Below are positions 12,356 through 63,728 of a stretch of DNA of 64,000 bases, piece after piece (position 1 is the stretch's first letter; each line of letters opens with the position of its first letter). Source of the stretch: Closterium sp. NIES-65 (taxonomy: Eukaryota; Streptophyta; Zygnematophyceae; Desmidiales; Closteriaceae); contig CANXME010002096.1 of NCBI GenBank assembly GCA_948144175.1, positions 1,674,001 through 1,738,000 of the forward strand, written 5' to 3'. The notes below the pieces were generated by a model. It had not been told where the DNA came from and did not search any database. It saw nothing but the letters and a program-made list of their open reading frames with translations. The position numbers and the translations under genes were made by a program.

Positions 12356-12360
12356 ACTTC

Positions 12361-12553: not shown

Positions 12554-12558
12554 TCAAC

Positions 12559-12679: not shown

Positions 12680-12799
12680 TGGTATCGAGCAGGTTCCCCC
12701 GTGGGAAGTGTGCCTAGGGCCCACCACATCGATCTTTTTTTTTTTCCTGCCCGAAGCGCGCTCAGCCCGAGTCGCGCTCCGGGCTCTCACCTCTTCGAG

Positions 12800-13690: not shown

Positions 13691-13855
13691 GCCGCTGGTG
13701 CCACGGAACCGCAGTTGCTGCTGTGCCGTCCGAGCAGCCGTGTTGCCGTGCTGCTGTACTGCTGAGCTGCCCGACCCGCCCTGTCTGGTGAGAGCAGCGC
13801 TTCTGTCACTGCACTGCCCCTGCCCTACAGTTGGTACTGCTAGTCTACTGCTGTC

Positions 13856-15003: not shown

Positions 15004-16106
<1,103 letters not shown>

Positions 16107-19637: not shown

Positions 19638-20518
19638 CCTTATGCACCATCACCTTGTGCACCTGAACCTTGCACAGCACCACCTCGTGCACGTTCACCA
19701 CTTGGCGGCTTCATGCCTGGAGGTGCCCATCCTTCAGGCCGGCTGAAACACCTGAACCACGGGTGTCCAGCCTTCTTGCAGTACCAGCACGCACCCTCCA
19801 TTCGGGTGCTCCCCCTGCCACCAGAGCTCTCATGCCCCTCGTTGTAGTCACCTCGGCCTCTTCCTCTGCCAAAGCCTCTCCCACGGCCTCGGCCTCTCCC
19901 TCCCCCTCTCCCCCTGCTGCCTCCTGCAGCTCCATACCCCTCAGCAGTTTTGTTGGCGGCACCACCTCCCGTGTGGCGCCTGCGGAAGTCCTCCTGCAAG
20001 ATCTGCTGCCGTAGCCACTCAGGCGTCCACTTGTTCTGCTGAGCGTTGAGGGTGGGGATAAGGTTGTCCCACGAGTTGTCGAGCACCGAGATGATTTTGG
20101 TGCACTGTTGCATTTCCGACACCTTGCTGCCCGCCGCTGCCATCCTCGCATAGGTGTCCTTGATCTTGTCAAGGGCCGGCTTCACATCATCTCCCGGCCG
20201 CATGGAGAGGGCAGCCAACTCCTTCTCCAATACGATCACCATCGGCAGCGTGTTGGGTTGAACCACGTCGCGTAGCAGCTTCCACGCCTTCGGTCCCGAG
20301 TCATCGAGCTCCACCAAATCCTTGATGTGCTGGAACATGTCGTTGTTGACCGACTGTAGAATCAAATCGTACAGCACCGCGCTCCGCTCAATCCACCGAT
20401 CGCGGGCATCTCCTTCCTCTGGCATCTTCTCCTCTCCCATAGCCAATTTCAGCAGCTTGTAGCGCTTGAAGGCGCTCCTCATCCGCCCACTCCATTCTTC
20501 ATAGTTGGAGCCATCCAA
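19638..20518 (-). pseudogene. Copia B gag
   Basis: The 292-codon frame starts MDGSNYEEW at 20518 and shows the UBN2/retrotran_gag-type helical region (LQSVNNDMFQHIKDL, NTLPMVIVLEKELAAL). An Arg-Gly-rich segment and one zinc knuckle, CWYCKKAGHPWFRC, follow. It ends at a TAA (19638-19640) that is in frame with pol, without overlap or shift. Canonical copia elements have a continuous gag-pol frame, so this TAA is either decay (CAA to TAA) or a readthrough stop. I call it disrupted only in that sense. Confidence 0.8.
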
Positions 20519-31548: not shown

Positions 31549-34500
31549 TTCAGTCAAGAGAAACAAACGTTATACTGCAGATGTCAAAAGTACTTATCGC
31601 GGAGGGACTCGGCTACAACTTACTGAGCGTCAGCCAGCTAATGGCGAAGGGGATTCATCTCGAAGCAGACAGCACCACCCAAGAATTCAAGCTGTATCAC
31701 GGGAGAGGAGGTCTCTACATCGGCAAGGCGGTCCTCAAGAACAACGTCTTCGTTCTTTATTTCGTCCTTGACCTTGGCACCGCCGACAGCGACGCCATCG
31801 TTAACTTCACCGACTGGAAACACCCTCCAGACCTTGATCCAGATTTTAGTCCAGAATGCTTCTGGTATTCACACACCATCCCTGAAGCAGAAAGAACAAG
31901 GGCGTTAGCAACAACTCAGACAACATCGGCAGCAGCAGAGACAACATCGGCAGCAGCAGAGACAACATCGGCAGCAGCAGAGACAACATCGGCAGTAGCA
32001 GAACCATCAACGCCAGCAGCAGGAACGTCAGCACCAATCGCTGGTACCTCAACGACACCGCTCCTCGTCGACGACACACCACCAACACCAGCGCAACAAC
32101 TACACCCAGCACCACGAGAAGTTCATCTCAGAATCCCAACCACTAGACCATTGGGATAAAAGGGCTTGTTTCAGTAGCGGGTCAGTGCGCCCACAACCCC
32201 CCAGGCAAACGTGCCTGTAACCCTTCCCTAGGATCGATCGGGGATCACCAGTGGACCTCTGACACCCCCCCGCATTGGGATGCCCGAAGTGCATACACCG
32301 GGATTCGAACCCGAGACCTTCGCTCTGGATACCATCTCAGAATCCCAACCACTAGACCATTGGGATAAAAGGGCTTGTTTCAGTAGCGGGTCAGTGCGCC
32401 CACAACCCCCCAGGCAAACGTGCCTGTAACCCTTCCCTAGGATCGATCGGGGATCACCAGTGGACCTCTGACAGTTCATCGTAGCGCAAACTTCACCGCT
32501 AGCTTCTACTCCAACTCCGACGCGTATCTACACTCACCCGGACACCGCGCCTCCGAAGATATCTGGCACGCACGCATGGGACACCCAAGCAACACTGTTT
32601 TAAACAACACAATAAGAGCAGGAGTCCTTGACAAAGACTCGTTACTACTACACGACGGCTGAGAACTACAACGGGCACGAGGAACATGTCTTACCTGCCC
32701 CGAAGCCGACTTACCACATCGGCCGTTCACTCCTCATCACAACCCGAGCGCACCCGCGTACGCACCACTCAAGAAAGTGTACAGCGACATCCTGTTCAAT
32801 CGGGAACTAGGACAAGTAATATTCAACTACACGATCACCTTCATCGACGCCGCCACCCGTTACGTCTGGCACCTAAACCTCCCTAGCCGTGACATGGCAT
32901 TCGCAGCCTTCGTTGCCTGGCTACCAGTAGCAGAGAGAGAATCGGGCGTACAACTGAAAAGCTTCCAGTCTGACGGAGGCGGAGAGTACACCTCTCAGCG
33001 ATTCAAGAAGTACCTGGCAGAAAGGGGAATCAAGCAGCTCCTCTCTCTTCCCTACGCTCATCAGCAGCAAGGTGTAGCAGAAAGAATGAAAAGGACTTTG
33101 CAAAACAGCATGCGCAAGCTGTTACGTGGCATGCGGCTACCCAACCACCAATGGCCTGCAGCAATGGACCACGCTGTCATGCTGCACAACTTTCTGTCAT
33201 CATCATCGCTTCCAAACAACGCATCACCACATCTGCTGTGGACAGGGAAACAGGGCAGCACAAAAATGTTACGATTTTTCGGATGCATGGTACAGTACCG
33301 ACCCCCAGCAGCATGAGCGTGCCGATTCTCACAACGCGCATAGTAGGGACTACACCTCGGCATCGAAAAGAACTACAACGCGTGGAAAATCTTCGACGTC
33401 CACTCCAAGGAAACAGTAGCAGCACGTGATGTAATTTTCTACGAACGACTCACGCTCCAAACATACCTTGCCAACCTTCAAGAACACAAAGATCCCACAG
33501 GCGGTTTTCGTGGTGACCGAGCCTTCGCCTCCGCAGCAGACGAAGCTGACTGGGACGAGCAGAATGTGGACAACGCATCAGAAGAGGCCGGACCTCTTCC
33601 GTTTTGCTCCGTCGACGTTCCCATGGACGAAGACAACCCTCGCGAAAGTGCCAATGTCGAAACCTTCTACCATTTCGCCGACAACGGTTACGTAACACCT
33701 GCAACAGTCAACACCAACGAAGCCGAATGAGTAGGACCAAATTTCTTACCAGATCCAGAAGCGGGAGATGAAGCAGCTTATCCCGAGGATGCAACTCTTC
33801 CCCGCTACTCACAGACCGAACTGCAGATTCTCGGACTCGTCACCGTAGTCCATGGCACCGCCATTCCTAAAGAGCCTGCGACAGCTCAACAGGCTCTGGG
33901 GGGGGAACATAAAGAAAAATGGCGCGAAGCCATGGACAAGGAGCTGAAGGCACTGGAGGAACGCAACACGTGGAAAGTGGTTCCTATCGGCGTGGCACGG
34001 AACAAGATAGTGCTCACCGGGAAGTGGGTCTTCCGTGTTAAAACAAAAGCCGACGGCACCATTGACAAATTCAAAGCTCGCTGGGTCGTACGCGGCTTTG
34101 ACCAAGAACACGGACGCGACTTCACCGAAACTTTCACTCCGGTTAGCCGCCACACCTCACTACGCATTCTCCTCGCAATCGCCGCCATGAAGAAGAAGAA
34201 GCTGCGACAAATCGACATTGCGAACGCATTTCTCTACGCACCTTTTGATGCTGAATTTTTCGTTGAGCTACCGCACGGCTCCCACGGAGAACCCAACCAA
34301 GTCTGCCAGCTACTCAAGTTACTCTACGGCATCAAGCAGGCCCCGCGACTGTGGCAACAGTACCTGCTCGCTCGCCTCATCCGCATCGGCTTCAAGCAAC
34401 TACCGCACGATCAAGGGATGTACTGGCTTACCAAAAACGCCGACTACATCCTACTAATTGTCTACGTGGACGATCTCCTTTACATCGGCTCAACTGACGG

Positions 34501-35452
34501 CATCACCACCAGGTTCGAAGGGGAGCTGCATCGAGATCTCACGCTCACAGTTTCATCTACCGTCACTCAGTACCTCGGCCTCAACATCCGGGAAGAAGGA
34601 GACGCTATCTACCTCAGCGCCGCGAAATACGCCGACACCATCGCCAAACGTTTCTCACTCACACCGACTATCATCTCCACACCGTACCGTTACACGACAG
34701 CAACCAACAAGGAAGGCTCCGCTCTACTCAAGCCCGCCGGCATACGCGACTACCAGAGAAAGCTGGGCTGCCTTCTCTTCGCAGCTGTCACCTGCCGCCC
34801 AGATCTATCCTACTATGCAAGCCAGCTCGCCACCCACCTCAAGAAGCCTGAAGCGGATCATCTGGCGGAGCTCGACCGCGCTCTCCACTACCTCGTCAGC
34901 ACCCCAACGGTCGGCCTGACCTACCATAAAAACGCAACTACAACGCCTAAGCTAATCGGTTACGTCGACGCAGATCACGCGGGCGACTCCGACAACAGAC
35001 GATCGCGCGCCGGCTACATCTACCGCTTCGAGCCTATCGGACCTATCTCCTGGCAATCGAGCAAGCAGGAACTAATTGCTCTCTCGTCAGCTGAAGCAGA
35101 ATATATTGCACTATGCTCAGCCACCAAAGAAGGGCTCTACCTTCGCGAGCTGCTGGAAGAAGCGAAGTTAGCCGAGTTACCCAACTTTACCCTGTTCTGT
35201 GACAACCAGTCGGCAATTCGCATCGCCAACAAGAACGATTTCGCGAACAGGACGAAACACATCGCCCTGCGATACTTCTTCGTGAAGGACGAGATTGAGA
35301 AGGGAAGGCTCGAGCTGTCATACTGTCCCACGTCCGAGATGGCAGCTGACTACCTGACCAAGAAGCTCGGAAAACAAAAGTTCGAATATTGCATGATGCT
35401 GACTGGACAAAGCCATGTCAGCGACACTCCAGAAGCGAAGGGGAGTGTTTGA
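31549..35452 (+). pseudogene. Copia E pol (pre-integrase, integrase, RT, RNase H)
   Basis: Begins inside the protease-to-pre-integrase region (MSKVLIAEGLGYNLLSVSQL). It carries a 21-bp tandem coding (S/A)AAETT four times near 31920-31995. A SINE interrupts it at 32128-32473. GAG-pre-integrase follows (ARMGHPSNTVL, CLTCPEAD), then integrase (FIDAATRYVW, FQSDGGGEYTS, QQGVAERMKRT). Stops follow near 33314-33345 (TGA, TAG, TAG) and at 33728 (TGA). From 33932 the RT-RNase H part is a single open frame of 506 codons: FKARWVVRGFDQ, LLYGIKQAPRLWQQY, IVYVDDLLYIG, YVDADHAGDSDNRRS, SSAEAEYIAL and FCDNQSAIRI. It ends at a TGA inside the LTR, as is common in copia. Confidence 0.88.
32128..32473 (-). mobile_element. 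tRNA-derived SINE, tandem 207-bp dimer
   Basis: 346 bp inserted in E integrase and flanked by GTTCATC at 32121-32127 and 32474-32480. On the minus strand it contains an A-box-like TGGTCTAGTGGTTGGGATTC, close to tRNA-Glu, and a B box GGTTCGAATCC 45-50 bp downstream, then CGGTGTATGC. A 150-bp segment (TGTCAGAGGTCCACTGG ... GGGATTCTGAG) occurs twice, at 32128-32273 and about 32332-32473, with the B-box part only between them. The element is therefore a head-to-tail dimer with one complete and one truncated unit. Pol III promoter boxes imply transcription by RNA polymerase III; mobilisation would need a LINE not seen here. Confidence 0.75.
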
Positions 35453-46646: not shown

Positions 46647-46827
46647 CTTGGTATTCAGAGCCTACGATCTCATCTCGGACCGCATCCACACCTTCGCTTC
46701 CCACTATCTCAATTTTTGGGGGGGGTAGACGTCTCTCAGCGATACAGCACCGCCGCTCGTAGTGCTCTCTCGGAAGCACGCACGGCCACGACTGAGGCTC
46801 TCGCTGAGCTTGCCCGACACCCCTGCC

Positions 46828-48006
46828 ATGGCTGATTTCACTATCGCCACGTTGACGCAGGAGCAACTCGATCGTCTCGTGCGACAGCTGGAGGAATCAG
46901 CGCTCGAAATCGCGACGCTCACGGCGGAACGTGACTCCGCCCGTCAACAGTCAACGGTGAACGCTCCGACAACTTCCCAAGCGCCAACCAATGTTTCTGT
47001 CCATTCGGAGGAGCCGATTGTTATCTCATCCGGCACACCAACGCAAAACAACAGCACGGGACAGCGCTCAGGCGCAGCCAGTGACGGCGCAGCCCAACCG
47101 ATGCCCGGCATGGGAGGGAACAGGAATGCATCAAGCCCACGGGAGCCCCGAGAAGCCCGTCGGCACGTGGAGTTTGCGATGACAAGTGGAGGGAACGCCA
47201 CGATGGCCCCAATGCCACTCAAGCCGCAACGCCCGCCCTGCTTCGACCCAAGCCAACGCGGTGGCCCGACAGTTCAATCGTGGGTCTTCACGATGAACGT
47301 GTTTTTCGACGCCAACTACGTCGAGTCGGACGCCGCCAAGATTCGGTATGCAGTTTCACTACTCAGGGGCCCCGCCATGGACTGGTGGCGAGTCATCGTG
47401 ACATCGCCACGCGCCTACGAGCCACCGCCGCACGAGGAAGGGCCCTCGGGTCCAGCTGTCACCTGGAGTTCGTTCTGCGAAACAGCCCAATATAGCACGT
47501 GGGATGCGTGGTGCGCAGGGCTTCGGGCACGTTTTGAGCCGATCGCGGCTTCTATTTCGGCGCGTCAGAAACTGCGCACTTGGCGCCAGCTCGGGTCGGT
47601 CCAAGACTACACCAGCGGTTTTCTCGCACTTTGCGAACAGGTCGGCTACATGCACGAGGCGGAGCGGGTGGACCGTTACGTCGGCAGACTGAAGCCGGAC
47701 ATATCGCACGAGATAATGCTACGCGGGCTATCGAATTTCAACGAAATCCTCGCGCTCGCCGAGAAAATCGATATCCTACGCCGACCGAGACCGGGGTCCT
47801 ATTTCGGACATCGTCCTCGGGGACTGATCGAGCACGCCACCGTACATGCCGTCGCAACGAATGCAGCTGCCACGCCATTTAGAGGGCGCTGCTTTGCTTG
47901 CAACCGGCCGGGCCATCGCAAGAGCGAATGTCCAGAAGAGCTGAGGCGTCGAGGAGCAGAGCAGGGGAGGGAGTCTCAGAGGCAGGGAAACGCCAGCAGT
48001 CAGTAG
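46828..48006 (+). CDS. gag: Gypsy gag polyprotein
   Basis: 392 codons from MADFTIATL. An earlier in-frame ATG exists at 46762, but this start precedes a coiled-coil-like LTQEQLDRLVRQLEE. The retrotransposon gag core is at about residues 130-300 (SWVFTMNVFFDANY, RQKLRTWRQLGSVQDYTSGF, YVGRLKPDISHEI). One CCHC zinc knuckle, CFACNRPGHRKSEC, lies near the end. It forms the virus-like particle and binds the genomic RNA. The stop TAG at 48004 lies inside the hairpin of the frameshift signal. Full length, no damage. Confidence 0.93.
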   Translation: MADFTIATLTQEQLDRLVRQLEESALEIATLTAERDSARQQSTVNAPTTSQAPTNVSVHSEEPIVISSGTPTQNNSTGQRSGAASDGAAQPMPGMGGNRNASSPREPREARRHVEFAMTSGGNATMAPMPLKPQRPPCFDPSQRGGPTVQSWVFTMNVFFDANYVESDAAKIRYAVSLLRGPAMDWWRVIVTSPRAYEPPPHEEGPSGPAVTWSSFCETAQYSTWDAWCAGLRARFEPIAASISARQKLRTWRQLGSVQDYTSGFLALCEQVGYMHEAERVDRYVGRLKPDISHEIMLRGLSNFNEILALAEKIDILRRPRPGSYFGHRPRGLIEHATVHAVATNAAATPFRGRCFACNRPGHRKSECPEELRRRGAEQGRESQRQGNASSQ

Positions 48007-51000
48007 AAATTGGGCCAACTACTGACGAGACTGCCTGCTCGCCCAACCACACCGACCCTCACCGAGTCACAGTACCGATTCACGCCATCGATCGGGCTCG
48101 GATGAATAAGGAGGGTACAGCGACGGATTGCCCAGTACTGATCCACGGGAAAATACAGGGAGCAGCAGTCAAGATTTTCATCGACGGAGGAGCTAGCCAC
48201 AGTTTAGTTAATACCGCAACCGCACGAAAACTTCAACTGACACTTAGCCGATGTTTACCTGAGATTGATGCGCGCTTAGTCGACGGCACGCCGCTGGCCA
48301 TACGGGAGAAGGTGGAGAGAGTAAAAGTTCGCTGCGGGGGGAACTTCGGGTTTACACAGGAAATGCTCGCGACGACACTGGATGGGCACGACATTTTATT
48401 GGGACGTGATTGGTTGCGACGTTACAATCCGAGAATCGACTGGACGACGGGCAGCTGCACTGTGCGAAGTAGTGGTAACTGGGTCGAACTACCACGCTGG
48501 CAGTCGCCTGAGTCATCGACGGTCCACGTCAACGCCATCACAATGAAACGAGCAGTCGCCGCTGGAGCTGACGTGTATGCAGTAGACATCGCAGTGGTAG
48601 AAAAAGATGAGCAGCCGAGTGATTTCCAGAAATTGCTGACAGCGGTACCGCCGGAGCTACAAGAGCTATTGAAACGGTACCCGGGAATTTTCCCCGACGA
48701 CTTACCGGAAGGACTGCCACCTCAGCGGGCGCACGACCATAGGATAGAGTTAGAGCCGGGGGCACAGCCAACTGTACAGCGCCAGTTCAGACTGACACAG
48801 CCGGAGCTCGACGAACTGGGGAAGCAGTTAGATTACCTGTTAGCAAAGCAGTTTATCCGACCGAGCTCGTCGCCGTTCGCCGCACCGATACTATTCACAC
48901 CAAAAAAAGACGGAGGTTTTCGCATGTGCATCGATTACCGAGCGCTCAACAGGGTTACAATAAAGTCACGATACCCCATTCCCCAAGCCGACGAACTGAT
49001 CGACCAACAGCGAACAGCACGGGTGTTCTCGAAAATAGATCTACGGGGAGGTTACCACCAAATTAGAGTCGAACCATCGGACTGCGCCAAGACAGCTTTT
49101 AGAACTAGGTACGGGTCGTTCGAGTACACCGTGATGCCTTTCGGGCTAACCAACGCACCCGCAACATTCCAGATGACCATGAACGAGGCGTTTAGACCAC
49201 TTTTAGATAAGTGCGTGATCGTCTACCTCGACGACATTCTCGTCTACAGCCGCGATAAGCAGCAGCATTTAGCGGACCTGGAAGCAGTGTTTAAAATTCT
49301 CGAGGAGCATCGTTTATTGACTAAGGGGTCTAAGTGCGAGTTTTTTCGGGATAGGTTAGAATTTTTGGGGCACGTTATTTCAGAGGCTGGGGTTGAGATT
49401 GACCCGAAGAAGCTGGATACGGTCAAAGCTTGGCACCCCCCGACAAACATCACGGAGCTGCAGAGTTTTTTGGGTTTCGTTAATTATGTCCGTCGATTCG
49501 TGCCTGACATGGCCCGCTTAACTGCCCCACTGACGGATCTGCTGCGGAAAGGGGTCGCTTTTACGTGGGGGGAGAAAGAGCATGCTGCCTTCTCTACCCT
49601 GAAAACTGTTCTCTGTTCACCACCTGTCCTGCGCATTGCCGACCCACACCGCCCATTCGAAGTCATTACTGACGCAAGCGACATCGCCATCGGAGCCGTA
49701 CTGTTACAGGATTTCGGGAACGGCCTACAGCCCATCGCATACGAATCACGAAAACTGCACCCACCTGAGAAGAATTACCCGATACACGATCGCGAAATGC
49801 TTGCGATCGTGCATGCGTTCAAAGTGTGGCGCTGTTACTTGACCGGCGCAGACGTGACAGTACGGACAGACCACAAATCTCTACAGTACCTCCGCGCACA
49901 GCCTCACCTCAACCCACGACAGATTCGATGGCTCGATTTCCTCGAGTCGAATTTTCACTACACGGTCACCTACAAAAAAGGAGCATCAAATATCGCCGAT
50001 GCACTGACTCGCCCTACTGCCCAGATTCACGCGATACTACTCGCCCAGACCAGCCCACTGCTGACAGGCCTATTTACCCACGGATACCAAACCGACCCGT
50101 TCTTTACAGGAGGCAACTCGCAGCAGTTCGCAGCAGCACGAGGGATCTATTACGTAAAGGTTGGGACCGACCGCATTTGGGTACCCGGGTATACACTACT
50201 ACGGGAATTACTGTTACAAGAGGCACACGACGGAGTTACCTCAGGACATTTCGGGGTAGAAAAAACACGACAGCAGCTGCAGCGGTATTATTACTGGCCA
50301 GAAATGTTGACCGACATCCAACGACACGTAGCATCGTGTCCCACCTGCCAGGTCATGAAATCATCACGGAAGCGGCCGGCAGGACAGTTGCAGCCGATCC
50401 CACCCCCAGAGCGTGCTTGGCAGCAGGTGACGATGGACTTCGTCACGGGGTTACCGGCCGGGGCGAGTGGGAACGACGCGATCTTGGTCGCCGTCGATCG
50501 ACTGACGAAGATGGCACATTTCGCAGCATGCAAGAAATCAATCACAGCCGAAGAAACAGCCCGCCTCTTCATCACCACCGTCGTTCGCCTCCACGGGATA
50601 CCATCGGCAATCATCAGCGACCGCGACACGAAATTCACCAGCAACTTCTGGCGGAACCTGTGGCAGCAGTTCGGCACACGAATTCAATTCAGTTCATCCT
50701 ATCACCCCGAAACCGACGGACAGACGGAACGGACAAACCAAACAATGGAGCAGCTGATTCGAGCCACGTGCGACGATCCGAACACGTGGGAACATCAGCT
50801 GCCGCTCATCGAGTTCGCGTACAACAACGCACCATCAGCCACGACGCAACAGTCACCGTTTTACCTGAACTACGGACAGGACCCAACAGTACCCATGACC
50901 CCACACCCCGACAATCCAGTCCCACGAGCCCAACAGTTCGCCGAGATTTTGCAAGCAGCACGGACCAGGGCAGCAGACGCAATTAAAAAAGCCAACATCA

Positions 51001-51494
51001 TCGCTAAACGAAACGCCGATCGCCACCGTCGACCTGTCACTTACCAGCCAGACGACCTGGTACTACTCGATACCCAGAACCTCCGCCTGCCCATCACTCC
51101 AAAACTTCGCCCCCGATATTGTGGGCCATTTCGCATCAGCCACATGATCACACCCGTCACCGCCCACCTCCTCCTCCCTGCTGACTGGTACGTCAGCCCG
51201 TCATTCCACGTCAGCCTACTTCGCCCTTACATACCATCCACGAGCCAACTGCCACGAAATCGCCCAGCCAGCATGACACGTCCCCCAACCGAACCACTAA
51301 TCACCCCTGAAAAAATCCTCAGCCACCGAGTCCGCAACCCTCGGGGAGCACGACGGATCGAATTCCTAATTCGCTGGAAGGATCGAACGCCCACAGAAGA
51401 CAACTGGGTCCCCCTGGATAAAATTGAGAACCACCCTGTCTTCACCGAGTATCTGCGAAGCCGAAATTTCCGCGACGTCCATGCGCTCTCGTAA
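47883..51494 (+). CDS. pol: Gypsy pol polyprotein with chromodomain
   Basis: Opens at 47883 after a TAG in this frame and overlaps gag by about 120 bp in the -1 frame. Its first ATG is 47928, but it is most likely made only as Gag-Pol. Numbering from 47898: retropepsin IDGGAS (D96); RT with YLDD at 443-446; RNase H ITDAS (D592); integrase zinc finger H..H with C814/C817; integrase catalytic D847, D908 and E944 (D-35-E); C-terminal chromodomain about 1138-1190 (RRIEFLIRWKDRTPTEDNW). Chromodomains of this type direct insertion into marked chromatin (family knowledge). Ends TAA at 51492, 28 bp before the 3' LTR. No internal stops. Confidence 0.95.
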   Translation, partial: RALLCLQPAGPSQERMSRRAEASRSRAGEGVSEAGKRQQSVEIGPTTDETACSPNHTDPHRVTVPIHAIDRARMNKEGTATDCPVLIHGKIQGAAVKIFIDGGASHSLVNTATARKLQLTLSRCLPEIDARLVDGTPLAIREKVERVKVRCGGNFGFTQEMLATTLDGHDILLGRDWLRRYNPRIDWTTGSCTVRSSGNWVELPRWQSPESSTVHVNAITMKRAVAAGADVYAVDIAVVEKDEQPSDFQKLLTAVPPELQELLKRYPGIFPDDLPEGLPPQRAHDHRIELEPGAQPTVQRQFRLTQPELDELGKQLDYLLAKQFIRPSSSPFAAPILFTPKKDGGFRMCIDYRALNRVTIKSRYPIPQADELIDQQRTARVFSKIDLRGGYHQIRVEPSDCAKTAFRTRYGSFEYTVMPFGLTNAPATFQMTMNEAFRPLLDKCVIVYLDDILVYSRDKQQHLADLEAVFKILEEHRLLTKGSKCEFFRDRLEFLGHVISEAGVEIDPKKLDTVKAWHPPTNITELQSFLGFVNYVRRFVPDMARLTAPLTDLLRKGVAFTWGEKEHAAFSTLKTVLCSPPVLRIADPHRPFEVITDASDIAIGAVLLQDFGNGLQPIAYESRKLHPPEKNYPIHDREMLAIVHAFKVWRCYLTGADVTVRTDHKSLQYLRAQPHLNPRQIRWLDFLESNFHYTVTYKKGASNIADALTRPTAQIHAILLAQTSPLLTGLFTHGYQTDPFFTGGNSQQFAAARGIYYVKVGTDRIWVPGYTLLRELLLQEAHDGVTSGHFGVEKTRQQLQRYYYWPEMLTDIQRHVASCPTCQVMKSSRKRPAGQLQPIPPPERAWQQVTMDFVTGLPAGASGNDAILVAVDRLTKMAHFAACKKSITAEETARLFITTVVRLHGIPSAIISDRDTKFTSNFWRNLWQQFGTRIQFSSSYHPETDGQTERTNQTMEQLIRATCDDPNTWEHQLPLIEFAYNNAPSATTQQSPFYLNYGQDPTVPMTPHPDNPVPRAQQFAEILQAARTRAADAIKKANIIAKRNADRHRRPVTYQPDDLVLLDTQNLRLPITPKLRPRYCGPFRISHMITPVTAHLLLPADWYVSPSFHVSLLRPYIPSTSQLPRNRPASMTRPPTEPLITPEKILSHRVRNPRGARRIEFLIRWKDRTPTEDNWVPLDKIENHPVFTEYLRSRNFRDVHALS
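47985..48026 (+). promoter_or_regulatory. Programmed -1 ribosomal frameshift signal
   Basis: Slippery heptamer G GGA AAC at 47985-47991, with GGA and AAC in the gag frame. A 7-nt spacer is followed by a perfect 8-bp stem: GTCAGTAG (47999-48006) with CTACTGAC (48019-48026), around a 12-nt loop. The gag stop lies within the 5' arm. A -1 slip at the heptamer leads straight into the pol frame (GGG AAA CGC CAG). Heptamer, spacing and hairpin match known retroviral-type signals. Confidence 0.85.
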
Positions 51495-52429: not shown

Positions 52430-53448
52430 TGTTCTCAACCCGTGTTTTTTTTCAGAAAATTATTTTTCCCACCCAGTCGTCTCCACTTGGACTGTCCTCC
52501 CCCCTACGTATATGTTCATTTGTGCGTAACACTACACTTACATGGAAACGGCTTTTAGCGTTGCTGCTCTAGCACCACCTCCACTGGAATATCTGTGCCA
52601 CACCAGTGGTAGGTATACAGTAACAAGAGTCGACGGTGCTTTGAGCCTAGTGGCGGATCAATCCTTGTTCACTGCCAGTTCACTAAACGCGGTGAAGAAA
52701 AAGTTTCGATCGAGCTTTCAAGTGCGGTTTTATTGTCAACAGTTCTGAATCGCTCATCGGAATTCGGGGTGACGCACCCGTTCTGCCTGGCACGACGCAG
52801 GGGGGTGACGGTCGACCGAGCGTCAGGGCGGCCAACTCCCTCGCGTGAGTCCCCCGCCAGGCTGGCGCGGGGCGGGCCTCTGCCCACGCCCCCCGCCCCG
52901 GCCCCCCACCCCGAATTCCTACAGAACCCCACGTTGCAGCCGAGGGGTGGCAAACTCGCGCGTGAGCGACGAGGGGCCTATTTACCCCTTCACGGAGGTG
53001 GACATTCGCTTCGCGTTGCCCGCGAGGCCCTAGTAACCCTCTCGGGCTGCCCTCGCCGGGCAGGCGGGTTGGTTGCGAAATTCAAAGGGCCCGACCCCAC
53101 CCTCGTCAACATCGCTGGCCCCTCGGGAGGGGACACGTGGCTCGCCCTCGCCACCCCGACCACCCCCACGCACGGCCCACACAAACCACCCACCTCCGCC
53201 CCTCCGAACCCCGCCATCGAGGGCATGCCCGGTACGGGCCGAAGCCGGAGGCTCGCCCTCGGCCACGACTTGCCTCGTCCGCCGAGCTGCATACTAGGCG
53301 ACCGACGGCTCACGCCCATTTCTTGATGGGGGGTCCCACTCCATCCGTCATTTCTCCATTCCAGCTTCGCTTTCCGATTTCCTCTGCCTCCCTGTCAGCT
53401 CTCTGCGCTCCTCCCCAAACCTTCCGTGATACCGACCGTGGTGTTAGC
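52430..53448. other. Left shoulder of the Crypton-like island
   Basis: 52430-52750 is AT-rich; a 68-codon frame at 52542 (METAFSVAALAPPP) has no recognisable content. From about 52790 the DNA turns GC-rich and stays so to about 63060. 53320-53448 is pyrimidine-rich and probably the leader and promoter side of the plus-strand gene. No terminal repeat recognised. Confidence 0.45.
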
Positions 53449-54571
53449 ATGGCGACCAGAAGGAGAGCACTGCCTGCGACTGAATTCCCCCTCCAGGTGC
53501 CAGTGGGCATCGGTGGGTACATGGTGACGCTGGAGATGAAGGACTACGAAGTCCTTCGCGACGAGAAGGCCGAGTTCACAGAACCTTGCTTCGACCTCGG
53601 CCTCGCGTGAGCGCGCATCCCTAGGTTGCGTTGTTAGTTGTTTAGGGTTCTGCACGTTTTCGTCGGCGTCCTTTCTAGGTCGATGTTGGCCTTGTCGTTT
53701 TCCCGCGTGGTCGACGATGTCCGTCCGCGATGGATGTTTTGGCGCTGCGTCGTCTTATAAACTAGTTTGCCTGTCCTCGACCATTGGCCCTACGTCGGTG
53801 ACGTCCGTCATGCTGCCGGCGACATCACCGTCGTGCGAAACCTTCGTCCGAGTCCGCTTGTCTTGCTGTTCGCGCTTTACCCCGGCGCCCGGCATGGATT
53901 GTAGCTCACCGCGCAAGTGTTTCGCTCCCGCCTTTTCGCCCCCGCTAGTCCCAGGTACGAGCTCGATCGTCTAGGAAAAGGCGATAGGATGATCCTGATC
54001 CGCGGTGCGAGTCTTCGCGCTGCCAGGACGGCGTCGAAGGCGGACTATCTGGTTTTCGGGTCGGCCTTCGCCTTCGAAGCCCTCGCCATCCCCCTGTGCA
54101 CCGGGTGAGTGTTCTGCGCCCGCGAGGTTTGATCCACGCCGACCGCGTTGCTTGTTGTTCCCGGACAGAACCCTGAATCTCTCCGTCGTGCTTGTGTTGG
54201 CAGGGGCGGACCTCTTCCTGGCAGGCACTGCAGCGTCCTGCTTGTTGTGCGCCCTGGCGACCTGCTTTTGCCCGACGAGGAGGAGATCGGGACGTTCTAC
54301 CGCCACCTCGACCCCAAGACCTCCTCCAAGCGGCACGAGGAGGAGGCGGCCAACGTTTTGAGGTGGGACAACGTCGACGGCTAGTCGCGCCGCTCCTTAA
54401 CGGCGTTCATGCCGCCTTGTCTGATGGCTCTTTTCCGTCTCGTAGCGCAGGTTTTTCGGCGAGTGCGTGAAGGCGGAGTTGAACCGTGAGGGAAGGCAGT
54501 GGACGGCTGCGCCTCCTTCCGCCGAAGTCCTCTCCGAACGTCTGGAGAGTCTTGCCGCCCCCATCCGTGAT

Positions 54572-54673
54572 GTGAGTTTCCAACGTCCATGTCGCCTTGT
54601 CGCCTGGGCTATCGTCGTCGAGGCGTCGACTCACCCTTTTCGTCGGCGCCATGTGCTTCGGATGTTGATGCAG
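54572..54673 (+). other. Stopless 3n intron in the plus-strand gene
   Basis: GTGAGT...TTGATGCAG, 102 bp, a multiple of three with no in-frame stop. Retention would add 34 residues without breaking the frame. Splicing joins LAAPIRD to KLPDILKEEV. Confidence 0.6.
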
Positions 54674-56249
54674 AAATTGCCCGACATCCTCAAGGAGGAG
54701 GTCACCGGCACGGGGCTGTTGGCGGTCAACGCGTTCGCGTGGTCGTTGGAACATCTGGACGATGTGTATCGCAGCTACGATCCGCTCATCGTCAAGAACC
54801 CGAAGATGGTCGGCTTGAAGGCGCTCCGACTGGAGCTGCTGCACCACGCGGAGAAGGCCGCGTCGAACAAAGGGGAGGCGGCGCCGACCGTGGGCCGTGG
54901 CGTCGGAACCGGCATCGCTCTGGGTGGGGAGGAGGAGCATGAGAGGGAGGACGTTGAGGGGGGCGGGGAGCACGACGGTGGCTCGGAAGAAGAGGAGGAG
55001 GACGTGGAGCGTGAGGAGGACGACGTGGTTGTCACCGGCGAAGAGGAGGCAGTACAGTTCGCCGGTGAGAAGGTTGCGGATAAGAGCGGCGGCAGCGGAC
55101 CCAAGTTGGGCAAGAAGGCCCGGGGCAGCAGTGGCTCGACCCTGACTAGGATGGCGTCAAAGTCGGCTATCGAGCGTCTGAAGGCGGCGGAGAGGGAGAT
55201 CAAGAAGCTGAGGGAGGAGAAGCTGGTGGCGGAAAAGAGGCTGGAGTTCCAGACGGCCCGGAATGACACGATTTACGGCGTGGTCACCTTGGCCGTGAAC
55301 AAGCTCACTACAGTCGCCGAGGGCGTGACCCATCTCGAGCAGACGTCGGGGAGGAGCATCCAAACGGCGATGGACGCTATGAGGGCGGTCGTGCAGGAGG
55401 CGGTGAGTTATCGCGGCTCCACCCTAGAATTCATGAACACGCAGAGGCTGCCCACCGTGCAGGCCCTGCACTTGACGGCTACTGCTGCACAGGGTAGGCG
55501 ACGGGAGGACGACCTCCTGCTGCTTCGAGGTGTGGCAGATGCTCTCGGCCAGAAGATCAAAACAGTCGTGTCTGCCGAGGTGAAGGCCGCCATGGAGGGC
55601 GAGGCGCAGCGGATCGCCGCTGCCGTGACTGCGAAGGCCGTCCAAGAGCTTAGGGACGACCTGGTGAAGGCGGTCACCTCCGCGACCCAACAGGGCATTG
55701 GCACCGCCGGGTTTAGCCTCCTCCCAACTGCTCTCGCGTCGGTGATGCACGGCGGTCGCGCAACCGCCGAGGAGAGTGGGCCGGCCCCAAGGCAGTTGGG
55801 GAAAAGGGTCGCCGACGAAAAATCCCTGACCGGCGACCAGACCAGCGGCGCTAAGCAAAGCAGAGGACCTGCGGTGAAACGCGGTGTGGGCGTGGATCCT
55901 CCTGCCCCTCCGTATGTTCGTATCCCTGGCGTCCACGACTTGCTGAAAGATGGACTTGGCACGCGACCGAGCGAAGATTTTCGACAGGTCGACGTCGCGC
56001 TCCATGATCCCCAGTCGGTGGTCGGGAAGACCGGTGGGCAGCCCGTGGGGGACAAGCAGCCACAGGCCCCGACCGATCCGCCGAGCGCACACGACGCGCC
56101 ACCGAGCTGCGACAAGGTGAGTCTGGCCGACGAGCTCATGGGTCCGGCGACTGCACAAGGCGCTCGACCGAGCGGCGGCACGGTCCAGATGGCAGACGAC
56201 ATGCACGTCGCAGCGGTGGTCGGCCAGGCGCGCGGGGAGCCTGTTGCGG

Positions 56250-56790
56250 TCCAGCATGTTCAACCCTCGACGAGTACGCCGACTGCGCGACCGACCGGCG
56301 TCACAGCGCAGCTGCCCGACGACCTCTTGCGCCCCGCAGCGGTGGTCGGACAGCAGGGCGGGCCGCCCGGTGCGGGCCAGCATCTTCACCCGTCGACGAG
56401 CACGCCAACCGCACAAGACGCGCGTCCGGCTGGCGTCACGGCGCTGGTCGACGAGCTCTTGCGCCCAGCAGCGGTGGTCGGACAGCAGGGCGGGCCGCCA
56501 GGTACGGGCCAGCATACCCCCATCGCGACGAGTCCGGCGACTGCACAGGACGCGCGTCCGGCTGGCGCCACGGCGCTAGTCGACGAGCTCTTGCGCCCAG
56601 CATCCGTGGTCGGACAGCATGTCCAGCAGGCCGCGACGGGCCAGCATCCCCACACCGCGACGAGTCCTGCCACTGCACGTGACGCGCGACCGGGTGGTGT
56701 CACGGCGCTGGTCGACGAGCTCTTGCGCCCAGCAGCGGTGGTCGGACAGCATGTCCAGCAGGCTGCCGGTGCGGGCAGCTTACCCGTTCA
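56250..56790 (+). repeat. 126-bp coding tandem repeat
   Basis: About four and a half units of 42 residues, each built on (A/T)RPxGVTALVDELLRPA and AVVGQ, a Gln/Gly segment and SPATAQDA. Units 2-4 keep the frame and most residues; the first is divergent (AQLPDDLLRPA). Confidence 0.85.
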
Positions 56791-58407
56791 TGGGGCCATG
56801 GTCGCCGCGGAACCGATCCCGATCCCAACGGCTATTGAGTCTCGGGCGGTCGAGGCTCTAATCACTCAAAAGCCATCGTACGACGAGTATCTGAAATGGC
56901 TCGAGGATCAGGGTCAGAAAACCCCAGTAATTCCTCCGACTCACAGCAACCAGGTGGTCGACCAAGGAGCAGAGGCAGGGAACGTCGCGGCGGCGACTGC
57001 AGGGCCGAGTGGCTCAACGGTGGAGGCGGCTGTGTGGAGAGCGGCGGAAGAGGCCGGCGGGGTGGACAAAGAGATCCTCGCCAGCATCGTGATGCCGGAC
57101 CCGGAAATCGAGGTCATGCGGGAAAAACTACAAGCAGCAGCTCCCACCGTGGGAGCGCAACAGGGTGCACCAGCCGCCTCGACTGCTCCTGCGGAGGACC
57201 ATAGCGCGGCTGGCGCCAAATCCCCCCCGGCCACAACCGGTGAGGTCGGCGATGGGAAGTAGAAGCGCAAGGGCAAGGACAAGGCGAAGGGCGGCCCGCC
57301 GAAGGTCGGCTCTTCCAAGGGGACGTCCAAAGCGGCCGCGCAGGGTCGGAAGGGTTCAGGCGTCCGCGTTGACCCTTCAAGTTGGCTGGCCGTCTCGGAG
57401 ATGAAGTTTGGGAAGAAGAGCCGTTACATCTGCCGGTCGATGGACAAGTCCGAGGCCGCCTACTGCATCGATGTCGCCGTTTTGTCTTTCGACGGCTTCG
57501 TCAGCGACGTGGTTCTCGACGAGTTCGGTGGGGTCAAGGAGGAAGTGATGGCGCAGTATAAGGCGGACTGGAATGTGGCGCGATTGATTCCGGGGGGCAT
57601 GTGGATGGTCATGTGGAGCCGAGGGGCGAACGTCTTTCGCGACAGGTAAGCTTGGCGAATGCTCAATTTGGTGCTCGTTTCGGTCGGTACGCGTGGGCCG
57701 GTCGGTGACGGTGGGTATTCCTGGTGTGTTTCGCAGGTTCCAATAGGTGGTCGTGGAATACAACTGGATAACCGGAGCCGACCGCGCAGCTCTCATGTTG
57801 GCTCTTCGCCCGGCGGTGTGGTTCGGCGACCTTCCGGAGTCGACCGAGCCCGAGAAGGCCGCGAAGAACAAGGTGGCGAGCGACATGATCGCACGCGTTT
57901 CGGTGGCCGCGAAAGTGACGCCCATTCCGGGCGTCGGGTCGGAGCGGTTGTCCGAGATCCTTGCCAGTACTGCGGCCGCGGTGTGGTGTTTTTCGGAGAC
58001 CAATGCCACGGCGGAAGTAGCGGCCGGCGAAGGGGGGGGCGGCAGCGACCGTGCGCGGAGCGTCCAACGAGTTCGCGAGTCGGTGTCGGACCGTCATCGA
58101 GGCGGTGCTTCAGCGGGCGGCCTCCCGGGTGGTCGCCGTAGGGGAGGTCGCCGAAACGGTGACGAAGGACTTGCAGGCGGCTGTGGTGAGGTCGCTGCCT
58201 GAGGTCGGAGAGGAGCGCGAGCACGACGAGCTGATCGCCCGTGTCATGATAGAGAACCTCGCCTTCTGGGGGGACTGCAATGTCAGAGGCCCGAAGCTCA
58301 AGGCTCGCGGTGTCGATTTGCCTATCGGCCCCCAGATGAAGATTATCATTCGGGACAGGGGGGCGAGGCGGCAGCAGCACAAAGGGAAGCAGGTCGCCGA
58401 CGCCTAG

Positions 58408-58729
58408 GTCGTCGAAGGCTGGCCCGCCTACTCGTAGCATGGTCGGCGTGGGTGCAAACGCTGCAGGCTTGAAGACCTACAAACGTTGTTTTGTTGTTTT
58501 GTTGTGCCTCTCCGGCTTAGTGATGCTGAACTTGTTCGTCGGTAGTTTTTCAGAAACGTTGTGAAGTAGGTTTTGTGGTGTGGAGTCAGTTTGATGCATG
58601 AACAACAGACAAACTTCTACTAATTTACAAGTCGAAACAAAGTTGGCAGTAAAAGAAAACCGCCCTCAACCCACCCTCAGTCACACCACGCTCAGCCAGC
58701 AGCACAAGTCGGACCCAGACGCAGTACCC
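58408..58729. other. Gap between the convergent genes of the island
   Basis: About 320 bp, T-rich then A-rich, presumably the 3' ends of both transcripts. TTGTTTTGTTGTTTTGTTG near 58485 is a plausible plus-strand 3'-end signal. No gene. Confidence 0.5.
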
Positions 58730-61700
58730 TCAGCCCGCCCTCTTGCGCTTCCCTACGCCGATGGCTTTCGCAGTCGCCTCGGCCTCCAAGCCGGCCTTAT
58801 TGGCCTGCTCATCCCACAAGTCGCCGAAGAGCCTCTTTCCCCAGTCAGCGTCCATGTAGCCCGCCGTGACCATACCCCACGCAGCGGCGAGCTTCCTCGC
58901 CAGCGGCTTGTCCAGACCCTTGATGCCGACCGACTTTCCGTCGGCTGTGGTGGGGACCTTGATGGGCGGGGTTGCACGGAGGACCAAGAGCGCGTCGCTG
59001 AAAGTGGAAAGCCCCGCTCGCCCCAGGTGGTCGAGTAGCTTGATGACGGCGGCGGTGTCAGCGGCGTCGTCGCTCCGCCGCAAGTCGTGCACTGCTTCCA
59101 TGATCCGCCTCATCCGGCGAGTGCATTGCTGCAGCGCATCGTTTTTCCCCGTCTCACCCACCTCGGTCGTGGGACGAGAGCTCTTCGCCGACTTCGCCGA
59201 TGCGGCGGGTTTGTCGCCCTTTTCGACCTTGCAGATCATGCGCGTGTGTCTGACGTGGAATCTGTGCTCGTCGTAACGTTCGCGCAACGGACGCGAGTCG
59301 AAGTTGGACGGGTTGTTCCACCAGCGTCATGCAGCCTCGACTGTCTTGGATGTGCGCCAGGGATGCACGACGTTAACCTCGTACGTCAGGTCATCGTCCT
59401 GTTCCTTCTCGATCTTGACGGACGCTGCCTTCTCGGCGGCGGTCATCGGCCTTGACGGTGTCGGCGCAGTCGGCGTCGGCCGTGCCTCGGCCAGCTTGAG
59501 AGCCTGCATCAACTTCGCGATCTCCGCGTCCTTCTCCTCCAACTTCTTTTGCATCTCAAGCTTCTCGATCGCGGCATCCTCCCTCTGGCGATGCAGCATC
59601 ATGGTGAGCTGGTCGACCTGATATTCGGCGTCGACTCGCGCGCTGAATTTTTGCGATCCAAGGGGGATGGTCGGCAAAAGGTGAGCCAATGTGGCAGGAC
59701 GACTTGTTTTACAGGTCGCCGGAACGCGCACGCCCTACCTCTTGGGGGTTCTCGCTCGGAGTACTGCGCGTCGCGATGGTTTCGACGTCCACCTTGTTGA
59801 CGTCCTTGGCCCATTTCTGGAAGTCGGGGTCGCGGCAGAGCTTGGAACTCTGGATGTACGGGTGCCACGGTTCGCGCATCAGCATGCACACAAGATCCTC
59901 GGCGACGATTCGGCGGCCGAACTCGATGAGCGATTGCAGGAAGTGCACCCCGGCCGTGTTGGGCTCTCTCGCGGATGCGCACCTTACCGCCTGCGAGTCG
60001 AACACAAACACAAACACAATCAGCCGTCGGTATAATGTCGTCGTGGAGATGGTCGGCGGGTTGTCGGCGTTTTTGCCGTCCGAAATGCTCACCTTGGCCA
60101 GTTCCGCTTCAGCCCACGGAAAGATGTGCTGGGCGATGAGGGCCACCACCTTGTCGTCGGGCTTCACCATGCTCCGGCCGAGGTGGTAGTCGCCGCGCTT
60201 GCCCGTGTAGCCGGCCTTTCTCAACACCGCCGCCTTCGGGATGGTCGTGATGTAGCTCTTCGCGAGTTTGTCGAGCGCCCAGTGGCCCAAGTCGGCGATC
60301 TCAAATCGCGGAACGCCGTCGTCGGCCAGCTCCTGGGCCCCACCCGCCCGGGCGGCGTGGGTGTTGCGCGTGATGAAGATCTTGTTCGTCCGCCACATCT
60401 CTTTCATGATCCGAGAATGAGATGAAGCCGGCAGCTCTTTTTGTGCCTTGTCGTTCCGAGCATGAAAGAGGTGCTTGTGATACCAGCTGTACGGAGTTGT
60501 GAAGTCGAGGGGCGGCACACATCGAGAGGTGGGCGAGCGGCTCAGCTGGTCGTACACGAAGTGCAGCCACAACAGTGTGTGACCAACGGCGCATATCTCT
60601 TGCTCCAGGTGTCTCGCCGCATAGCTGTGATGCAGACGAGCATCCTTGTTCGTCTTGGAGTTTCGTGACGCGACGACCATGACAACCGGCCGTCGCGTGG
60701 AGTGCTCGGGCGACGCGCTCCCCATTTTGTACAAAAACAGGTCGGGAAGCTCGATCGCTCGGAGACTGGCTCCGCGGAGAAGGGTGTGGTGACCCAAGAG
60801 GGTCATCGTCTTCATCAGCAGAAACTTCCACAGTGTCTGGGAGGGGGTGGCCGCTTTGGGTTCGTACGCCCGAGCTGCCCAGGTCGGCAAGACCTTGAAC
60901 ATGAGGTGGCGGATCTGGTCGGTGGTGTACGTGTCGCCGAGCATTCCGCGGTGCCGGTCGACGCAATCCCTGCACATCAGTTTCCACGAGGACTGGGTTA
61001 GCTGGGCGAACCGGGAAACAGGCGCGGGACGACTTGCCGACTTACCTGTCGTCCCTGTGCCACTTCTCTCTGACCATCGCGCGCACCTCCGAGCGGAACT
61101 CGGAGATGTCGTACATGATGTGGAGCTCCTTCACCCCGAAGAGCGTCCCCTCGACCTTGCAGGCTGTCTGGAGCGCTTTGATGCGGATGAGCAGCATCAA
61201 AACGGTTGTCGGCTTCAGGGGCTGGACACGGACGTCGGGATTCAGCTTCTCGAGCTCCTTGGCCTTTGCAATACCGTGCTGCCTCGCGATTGACAGAATG
61301 TACGCCCTGATCTACGTGGCGTTGACGCGCGGACCGTGCATCCATTGTAGGTCGCCCTTGGCGGTGTGCCACTGATCACCCATGTCTTCGTCGATGTACC
61401 TCCCTATCTCGTCCTCGTGTTCCAGCACGCCGTCCCCCTTGACTCTGGCGGTTTGCTGTCTTGGAAGGTTCGCGCAGCACCATCTTCTGAAGTCGAGCAG
61501 CGCCCGCAGGTACTGAACCCGGGTCGTTCTCGCCTCCAGCGTGTCCAGATGCCGGAAACCCCACATCATCCTCAGCAATCTGTTCTTCTTGGCGAGCTCT
61601 TTGTTGATGTCAAAGGCGGCTTCCGCAAAATCGTCGCGCGGAATGTTTTGCAGGAAGGCGTCATCTTTCTCGTCGGCTGCCAACAAGTCCTCTACGGTCA

Positions 61701-61977
61701 GATACATGTAGTCGTTTTCTGGAAATGGTCCAATTGGCGGCGGCTGCTCCGTGTCTGAACGCGGCGAGTACCGGTCCGGCTCGGGTTCGGGAGCCCCTTT
61801 CGTCCCTGGCGGTAGGGGGATGGTCGGGTCGACGGGAATTTTTGCCCTAGCGGCGTCTACGCCGACCACCATGTCGGCGGGAATATTTGCCCTAGCGGCG
61901 TCTACATCTTCCTCCATGAAAGGCTCGTTCAGGTCGGGAATCGCGCTGCTCCCCGCCGGCGGCGCGACGCCAGCCAT
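58730..61977 (-). pseudogene. Crypton-like tyrosine recombinase gene, three exons
   Basis: Exon 1 is 61977 to about 61057, exon 2 about 60968-59713 and exon 3 59642-58730. Donors GTAAGT and GTAAAA and acceptors GTGCAG and TTCAG keep phase. Exon 2 holds the catalytic domain. Numbering from the ATG at 60977: R73 in LLRGASLRAIEL, K108 in NSKTNK, H207 and R210 in THAAR, H232 in GHW and nucleophile Y242 in KSY. Arrangement R, K, HxxR, H, Y with KTN and RHLEQEICAVG resembles Crypton/GCR1-C-type recombinases. These cut and rejoin DNA through a phosphotyrosine and need no DDE transposase or RT. Exon 1 has a DLNEP motif and two VDAARA repeats. Exon 3 has a coiled coil and a basic C-terminus (VGKRKRAG). 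Two breaks: TAG at 61312-61314 and TGA at 59325-59327, in otherwise open frame. Confidence 0.72.
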
Positions 61978-63477
61978 CTCGGCGGGTAGAGTTGTTCCTA
62001 TCGGCCTCTAGTTGTTGCCGCGGTCTCGCGGCGGTACGTGCTCGGCCCACCAAAGTCGATACTGCACAATCGCTGCCGTGTATTGCCTTCGCACCGTGGC
62101 CCTAAAGGCCGCCCGTCTTTCGGCCCTCTCAACGTTCTCGGCGATCGTCAACTCCGCGGCAATGTCGGTCAGTTCGGGAATTTCGGGAAGTAAGGGCGGC
62201 GGATTAGTGTTCTGCTGGGTGACTTTCGGTTGTTGTCGACCTAGCTAGTCGTCCTAGTCGGAATGATTCTAAGTCGGAAGCCCGTACAGTTTGCCGACCT
62301 AAACGCACTCTACACCGGCGTGGCTCGTCGTCGACCCTGCACCACGCGTGGTCGGTCGGTCTCCGAGAAGCGTGAAAATGACTGAGGGAAATGTGGCTCA
62401 CCAGAATGAAAATGAATGCAACGCAACAAACAAGTGACGAAATGCCATGGACACTTGGCCGTCAGGGGGTCATAGCATAGAGAGGCACAGTCTCGGTTCG
62501 GGCGGACAGGTGTTGGCGGGCGATCCGTGGGCAGGTCTCCAACCCTGCATGCCAGGCAGAACGGCGGCGCAATGGTCGACGTGGCACGGGACACGCATGT
62601 CTTCTTCGCAGCCGACTGTGTGGTGTTCCCATCACGGTGAACCGTGCTTACACGTCGGCGTGACGCAGTAGTGCTCATCGCGTCGCCCGACGATGGTATC
62701 CCGCGGGCACGTTCCCGACAGCAGGCCGGCGAAGGCTTGATGGCCGCGTGGACAGACGTTCGTCGATCGATGTTCGCCGCGTGGAATGTTGTGTTTCGGA
62801 TGGGCGACGTGTGGCTCTGCGCGCCAGAGCAGTGGTCGGCCAGGAATCGCGATGGGCCTCACGTCGCAGTCCGCGCCGATGGCAAGCTGGACGTCGCGGC
62901 AAGGTGGCCGCGACCGGCGTCGTCGACGTGTCGACCTCGTACGGAGGGTCCGTTGAGAGGTGCCATCGGGGTTTGTCTCATCGGGATTGCCGGGCGACGC
63001 AAGGTGACGCTTGTCGCCCAGGACGTGCACTCAGTTAGCCGGACAGGATGACGCAGGGTGGCGGATCCCTTTCCCGAGCCGCGTCGTTTTTGCACCCGGA
63101 TGTAGTCGGCGCGTTGAGATATACCATGCTGAATCGATACTCACGAATCAGAATAGTGATTCTTGATTAGAAATCGACATGGCCTGACCCGCCCTTCTGC
63201 CAGGCTGGTTTGGAGCGGGGCAGGAGCCACCGTTGCATCAACCAAAACGCACCACACTCCGGATATGTAAGAGACAAAGGCTCCAGCCTGCATGCTGTGA
63301 TACAGTGCAACAGACCCGCCCGAAGGCAGACATTCCCAGAGGTCACCCGAGGCTCGTACCGAAACAAGGCGGGAAAAAGGGGCAACTTCTGAAACGCTTG
63401 TGGCATAATTCATGAAGCTCAAGGGAAGGAACGGTTGCGATTGGCTATAGAAGGCTAGGTCAACGTGTTGTCTTGCA
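61978..63477. other. Right shoulder of the Crypton-like island
   Basis: 61978-62640 would be the upstream region of the recombinase gene. At 62644-63051 a plus-strand frame of 135 codons (MLTRRRDAVVLIASPDD...) ends in TGA and competes with an equally long frame on the other strand; I cannot decide whether it is real. GC richness ends near 63065, a candidate right boundary. 63066-63477 is AT-richer without features. Confidence 0.4.
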
Positions 63478-63486
63478 TTTGTGCTT

Positions 63487-63728
63487 GGGAAATTATACGC
63501 GCAGTCACAATTATGGCCGTATTATCACGTTTGGTCACGGGGTTATCACGGACAGTCACAGTACAGTACTCCGCTATCACGCTTGATACATTATATCATT
63601 TGCTGCTGCAAGCGTGATAGCGCTATGATCATGCGTGATAGCGAAGTACTGTACTGTGACAGTCCGTGATAACCCCGTGACCAAACGTGATAATACGGCC
63701 ATAATTGTGACTGCGCGTATAATTTCCC
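63487..63728. mobile_element. 242-bp foldback MITE, Mutator-type
   Basis: Inverted arms of about 95 bp start GGGAAATTATACGCGCAGTC and match their reverse complement with two mismatches, around a central spacer of about 50 bp. The flanking 9-bp duplication TTTGTGCTT at 63478-63486 and 63729-63737 is exact. A 9-bp duplication with long inverted ends is typical of Mutator-like elements (family knowledge). TATCACG recurs several times per arm. No coding capacity; a transposase must act in trans. Confidence 0.9.

Follow-up and report, generated by a model that had tools for sequence, protein, structure and literature searches.

This analysis concerns a stretch of 64,000 nucleotides from the streptophyte alga Closterium sp. 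NIES-65 (GenBank assembly GCA_948144175.1, contig CANXME010002096.1, positions 1,674,001 to 1,738,000 of the forward strand), called the window below. Near the end of the window lies an island rich in guanine and cytosine (GC), 52745-63131, which by comparison with related sequences is one member of a tyrosine-recombinase DNA transposon family with many copies in a Closterium genome. It holds a tyrosine recombinase gene on the minus strand and, convergent with it on the plus strand, a second gene for a large protein, here called the partner (Table 1). The best explanation of the whole, including movement as a circle and a role for the partner, is a Crypton-like DNA transposon of which the island is a degraded copy. 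We give this reading a probability of roughly 80%. A first-pass annotation, made from the letters of the window, had proposed a large mobile element, Crypton-like and with an unknown partner gene, and this proposal is supported by dozens of copies with both genes between fixed ends.

Evidence for a single mobile unit can be found elsewhere in the genome, which was searched over 874 Mb in 2,400 contigs. With 61400-62600 as the query, 40 places out of 63 candidates were scored, at 96-100% identity. With 52500-53700, 40 out of 118 candidates were scored, and the 39 lying outside the window begin at query positions 237-248, which correspond to 52736-52747. For 33 of the 40 right-side places (window included) a left end is found on the same contig and strand. 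The two ends are 8.6-9.6 kb apart in 22 of these pairs, 15.8-16.9 kb apart in nine and about 23-24 kb apart in two; the longer spacings would fit DNA nested inside the copies. This pairing supports the earlier inference that both genes belong to one unit, and the partner lies at a near-constant distance from the recombinase in most of the scored copies.

The ends were compared between the window and 29 further copies in which both sides could be read. The left end (first 12 nucleotides, up to two substitutions) is present in all 30, and all 20 left-terminal nucleotides are equal to those of the window in 24 of the 29 other copies. The right end (last 11 nucleotides, up to two substitutions) is at its predicted place in 27 of the 30 and not in C1886, C741 and C2219b. 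In these 27, the element begins CTGAATCGCTCA and finishes ACCATGCTG, with few variants. Flanking sequences are unrelated between copies, apart from four pairs that have both flanks in common (C354/C2399, C874/C1780, C2129/C965 and C35/C2122). These pairs look like duplicated genome regions, and the 27 copies therefore represent 23 distinct insertion sites. The edges first proposed, 52790 and 63065, are moved by the other copies to 52745 and 63131. GC content is 0.627 within the element, 0.475 in the 1,000 bp on its left and 0.497 in the 869 bp on its right. The earlier description of a GC-rich island with two convergent, intron-bearing genes is thus confirmed, with a GC step at both edges.

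The only repeat common to both ends is a core of 3 bp, mostly CTG. Among the 27 copies, the left core is CTG in 25, TTG in one and CCG in one, and the right core is CTG in 21, CTA in five and TTG in one. Single-base differences confined to the core of one end are, in our reading, what recombination between non-identical cores would leave. Beside the core, G at -3 and C at +4 are each found in 17 of the 27 copies (duplicates included; no statistical test), and any preference for neighbouring bases is weak at most. No terminal inverted repeat was found; the two ends agree at 25 of 60 positions.

The minus-strand gene matches the Pfam family NDC10_II (E 2.3e-11, 43.8 bits, cut-off 26.3), as do all 16 aligned relatives. 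Residues R73, K108, H207xxR210, H232 and Y242 correspond by spacing to alignment columns R381, K416, H515, R518, H540 and Y550. Across the 16 relatives, R518 is nearly invariant and the other five columns are invariant. The gene had been read as a tyrosine recombinase with a complete catalytic set, and both the profile match and the conserved columns uphold this; the best-matching family is recombinase-related. With this match, and with the near-constant distance between the two genes, neither of the outcomes named beforehand as refuting the proposal was obtained. GCR1_C and DUF3504, two further profiles suggested for the gene, gave no match at E 0.1 or better in the 16 relatives, and neither did DUF3435. 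CryptonA and CryptonI have a recombinase of the DUF3504 type. Downstream of the catalytic part are a coiled coil and a C-terminal region common to the relatives, the latter without a Pfam family.

The plus-strand product had been described as longer than 1,300 residues and not assignable. Both points hold: full-length relatives have about 1,300-1,430 residues, and among 40 relatives there is no Pfam match of weight. The 11 best relatives show 80-91% identity over 92-99% of the query. In addition to the C-terminal region given in Table 1, a conserved N-terminal region is present. No peptidase family, C48 included, is among the families matched by the 40 relatives. One relative, P0212 from Yama58-4, carries the precomputed domains PF03130 and PF13646, which we take to be HEAT-type repeats; these extra domains may come from a gene-model fusion or from capture.

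Both genes of the window copy are interrupted by in-frame stops, and the partner also shifts frame in a run of G near 58035; the first-pass annotation had not noticed this damage. Two of the partner lesions, the TAG at 57260-57262 and the one in the G run, were compared with two close relatives, and both relatives lack them. Because both genes carry lesions, the window copy is probably not autonomous.

The association of the two genes extends to other families. From 125 places in the genome with NDC10_II, 20 regions of 10 kb were picked by hand for variety, and a profile of the 40 partner proteins was run on 2,441 open frames from these regions and the last 12 kb of the window. All 75 matches lie on the strand convergent with the recombinase, and none was obtained in 554 control frames from positions 1-52700 of the window. 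A convergent partner relative is found in 18 of the 20 loci, strong in 13 and weak in five, and some of the loci that have one carry recombinases about 60% different. Elements of family B begin CCGAACACC... and finish ...GGTATATCATC-CCG, with some variation, and their right end is similar to the family-A one.

The two genes also share a history. Their divergences are correlated over the 18 loci (Mantel r 0.88, p 0.0001). For nine representatives the values are r 0.83 and p 0.0004, which is the fairer figure because loci inside one group are not independent. The partner diverges faster than the recombinase. Between families, the ratio of non-synonymous to synonymous change (dN/dS) is 0.15-0.35 for the recombinase core and 0.41-0.58 for the C-terminal exon of the partner, the latter from L009, L011, L013, L014, L017 and L021 (four families, with the window's family and the L019 group excluded). 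Within families there are few changes, and ratios range from 0.35 to 1.72. Between families, then, both genes are under purifying selection.

An example of exchange between families can be found in loci L011 and L027, which differ in their flanks on both sides and are 98-100% identical to each other over most of the element. Compared with L012 of family B, L011 shows 97-100% identity over about 7.4-11.8 kb, the recombinase half, and 58-77% over 1.4-7.4 kb. Compared with L014 of family B', it shows 94-99% over 1.4-7.0 kb and 61-87% beyond. In L011 and L027 a family-B recombinase half is thus joined to the partner half of another family, and the join falls between the two convergent genes. At its outer left, over 416 bp, L011 is again like family B (95-97% identity with three copies of B, 90% with B'), and the same part of L027 is equivocal (91-92% for B, 90% for B'). 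The mosaic occupies two independent insertion sites, and the left end of L011 looks to be of family B again. Since the mosaic recombinase keeps its own right end, and in L011 a B-like left end too, recognition of the ends is more likely the task of the recombinase.

A second exchange is likely between L019/L020 and L023/L026. Their recombinase proteins differ by 8-11% and their partners by 57-60%; the DNA is 83-86% identical over the 4.6-kb recombinase half and elsewhere only in short pieces, mostly at 68-76%. Fast divergence could also produce this pattern.

Elements are also found stacked head to tail. On C1828, one element's right end passes directly into a left end with a single CCG in common, and the next 396 bp are 90% identical to a known left end. 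The same junction is present in L015 of C83; L015 is 99.3% identical to L014, and the two may be one locus duplicated. C1888 combines two families: behind the right end of an element of family C (the type of L021 and L025) comes a left end of family A, with CTG in common. Finally, C1769 has an array of four recombinase matches at about 2622935-2650531, three of which recur every 10.42 kb, with 99.8% identity across 660 bases compared. Junctions like those in C1828, C83 and C1888 would be the expected content of a circle joined at the core, or the product of insertion into the end of an existing element. Unequal exchange could be another way to spread them.

These features suggest the following course of events. 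The minus-strand tyrosine recombinase would join both ends into a circle at the 3-bp core (CTG in the window's family). The circle would then insert at a further site resembling CTG, so that each end carries one core. The partner, expressed on the other strand from the opposite end of the element, would be a component needed for propagation. We think of it as a co-factor that is nuclear and associates with itself through its coiled coil, assisting the recombinase or protecting the element against the host. Excision as a circle and re-insertion fit the full catalytic set, the fixed ends that lack terminal inverted repeats, the minimal core and the head-to-tail junctions. The circle and the order of events are inferred from these patterns, and so is everything said of the partner's biochemical role and location. 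That the partner is a generic co-factor is somewhat probable. For Cryptons, excision as a circle and re-insertion by the tyrosine recombinase have been proposed (PMC3212892).

Several observations weigh against this reading. Head-to-tail junctions with one core were seen, but neither a circle nor an excision, nor an empty site (no search for one was completed). The core deviates from CTG at six of 27 right ends and two of 27 left ends. Its 3 bp (mostly CTG, in 27 copies, and CCG-like in family B) are fewer than the 4-6 bp of the terminal direct repeats in the Cryptons described in PMC3212892. A 20-nucleotide inverted pair, 90% complementary (52773-52792 and 62550-62569), lies inside the ends and is not terminal; it may be a putative binding site, and we judge it to be at chance level. 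Seven of the 40 right-side places have no paired left end. Two of these were inspected: C995 is complete and matches through to 52745 at 97%, and C1755 has the partner and lacks the outer part, its outermost 640 bp being unmatched. In the other five the missing end says little, because only some of the candidates were scored.

Other points against the reading concern the partner. The five weak loci (L016, L019, L020, L023 and L026) have E values from 1e-12 to 6e-5, and L016 is poorly aligned. Two of the 20 loci, L018 and L024, have no partner by profile. In L018, DNA similarity to L019 ends at 4566, and a Copia-type frame, identified by eye, overlaps the place of the partner; in L024, a frame of 738 residues at the partner position does not match the profile. 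Given the exchange described above, the partner is not strictly bound to one recombinase. Like the Pfam search of the 40 relatives, comparison with PDB and with known folds gave no match of weight, so that any role assigned to the partner is a guess.

The partner may instead face the host. PIF/Harbinger, En/Spm and VANDAL elements combine a recombinase or transposase gene with a second conserved gene, and in VANDAL elements VANC counters host defence. By analogy, the recombinase alone would move the element, and the partner would be an anti-silencing gene. Its faster evolution would suit this role, and so would the recombination of halves between families, which is to be expected if the gene deals with the host and not with the ends. 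Set against this is the retention of the partner in 18 of 20 loci across deep divergence and under purifying selection, which is not the behaviour of loose cargo. We consider the anti-silencing role unlikely, if still a serious candidate. The enzymes of these three groups are of the DDE type, unlike the tyrosine recombinase of the Closterium element.

The Crypton-like reading also has to be weighed against other kinds of element. A DIRS- or Ngaro-type retroelement with a lost or hidden reverse transcriptase, in which the partner would be Gag, is suggested by the coiled coil and disordered basic stretch of the partner and by the existence of tyrosine-recombinase elements with a Gag gene, in the DIRS1 class (PMC3537659). 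It is very improbable. Neither reverse transcriptase nor RNase H nor Gag was matched by ten scanned frames of the element or by the 40 partner relatives, and no reverse transcriptase-RNase H was found in the 16 recombinases. The genes have several exons and lie on opposite strands, terminal inverted repeats are absent, and the two genes already fill about 8.2 of the 10.4 kb.

The Starships of Pezizomycotina, with a captain recombinase and variable cargo, are likewise driven by a tyrosine recombinase and larger than Cryptons, and it has been suggested that they swap captain or cargo (PMC12134995). The Closterium element exceeds the 2-5 kb first cited for Cryptons. It differs from Starships in the missing DUF3435 match in the 16 recombinases, in its constant two-gene content and in its size of about 10 kb, which makes a Starship-like origin a distant prospect. 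A chance neighbourhood of two independent repeats, conceivable in a transposon-rich genome where some copies of 16-24 kb look as if they held nested DNA, is practically negligible, given that dozens of copies have their ends and spacing fixed and that the two genes diverge in a correlated way.

Traits that place the preferred reading near Cryptons are the R-K-HxxR-H-Y tyrosine recombinase, a unit without reverse transcriptase and the lack of terminal inverted repeats, which the described Cryptons also lack (PMC3212892). The lineage indicated by the NDC10_II match is that of Ndc10, derived from CryptonF. CryptonF and CryptonS, from fungi and stramenopiles, likewise have a tyrosine recombinase and short direct repeats at their ends, and some of those from oomycetes carry a second gene, a C48 peptidase (PMC3212892). 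In CryptonS, TATGG termini occur in the majority and the peptidase in some, neither being obligatory (PMC3212892). The Closterium element differs from CryptonF in having no GCR1_C match in the 16 relatives, and from CryptonS in its CTG ends and in a partner without a recognised peptidase. From both it differs in its length of 10.4 kb, its large coiled-coil second protein and its streptophyte algal host.

The first-pass annotation held the two-gene arrangement to be undescribed. This stands in part: Cryptons with a second gene were already published (PMC3212892), and the novelty appears to lie in the partner, in its identity, its conservation and its exchange, and in the host lineage. Table 1 of the 2011 survey lists no green-plant Crypton (PMC3212892), and the main-text passages of the Closterium genome-size paper give repeats only as a total (PMC10407611). 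A literature search that mostly left preprints and closed journals outside turned up no description of Cryptons from Closterium or any other streptophyte alga.

Table 1. Coordinates in the window of the element, its ends, its two genes and their lesions.
Feature	Position	Strand	Remarks
Whole element	52745..63131	.	10,387 bp; edges from other genome copies and GC step
Left terminus	52745..52764	+	CTGAATCGCTCATCGGAATT; first 3 bp are the recombination core
Right terminus	63112..63131	+	CGTTGAGATATACCATGCTG; core in the final 3 bp; other families have a related terminus
Partner gene	53449..58407	+	Proposed exons 53449-53606, 53955-54104, 54204-54362, 54451-54571, 54674-57645, 57737-58407; two stops and a frame change
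Partner segment	54674..57645	+	Coiled coil, acidic proline-rich stretch with 132-bp repeats (56209-56761), basic stretch
Partner C-terminal conserved region	57360..58407	+	Start approximate; partly predicted helical; best kept part across families
In-frame TAG in partner	57260..57262	+	
In-frame TAG in partner	57744..57746	+	Directly past the last intron
Tyrosine recombinase gene	58730..61977	-	Proposed exons 61977-61046, 60969-60093, 59990-~59713, ~59642-58730 (last intron edges uncertain); two in-frame stops
Catalytic exon	60093..60969	-	R, K, HxxR, H/W, Y and Ndc10-like tail; NDC10_II over residues 110-425 of the open frame; conserved columns
In-frame TAG in recombinase	61312..61314	-	
In-frame TGA in recombinase	59327..59329	-	C-terminal region

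The surroundings in the window hold other repeats. A long open Gypsy-type retrotransposon (46729-51491; Gag, reverse transcriptase, RNase H, integrase and chromodomain) ends about 1.25 kb left of the element. Copia-type pieces with RVT_2, integrase and gag_pre-integrs matches are found at 16613-19639, 22743-23555, 33731-35449 and 9000-10382. About 355 bp beyond the right end, at 63487-63728, an inverted repeat of 101 nucleotides, 97% complementary with a 40-nucleotide loop, looks like a foldback element. There are also an (AC) repeat of about 127 copies with 98% matches (15734-15988) and dense GC-rich tandem arrays, including units of 31, 21 and 9 bp (11652-13695).

Protein relatives of both genes, among the matches listed, are all from Closterium (NIES-64, NIES-65, Naga37s-1 and Yama58-4, with one each from NIES-53 and NIES-54); this rests on the best 120 of 214 in one search and on 48 of 48 and 76 of 76 in two others. 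Since these listed products are deposited in public databases as unnamed proteins, counts of gene families in Closterium may include them.

To our knowledge, the movement of Cryptons is largely deduced, and few of the elements are young, numerous and sharply bounded. Closterium offers dozens of nearly identical copies whose ends are exact, besides tandem junctions and natural mosaics, so that both the circle model and the requirement for the partner can be tested directly, and this in a sister lineage of land plants. Tentatively, the elements could form a separate class of eukaryotic recombinase transposon, with an obligatory second protein that makes the machinery complete and is interchangeable between families, which would trade this module and stack on one another's ends. 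If so, the genome would hold natural experiments that could tell the part responsible for the target from the generic one.

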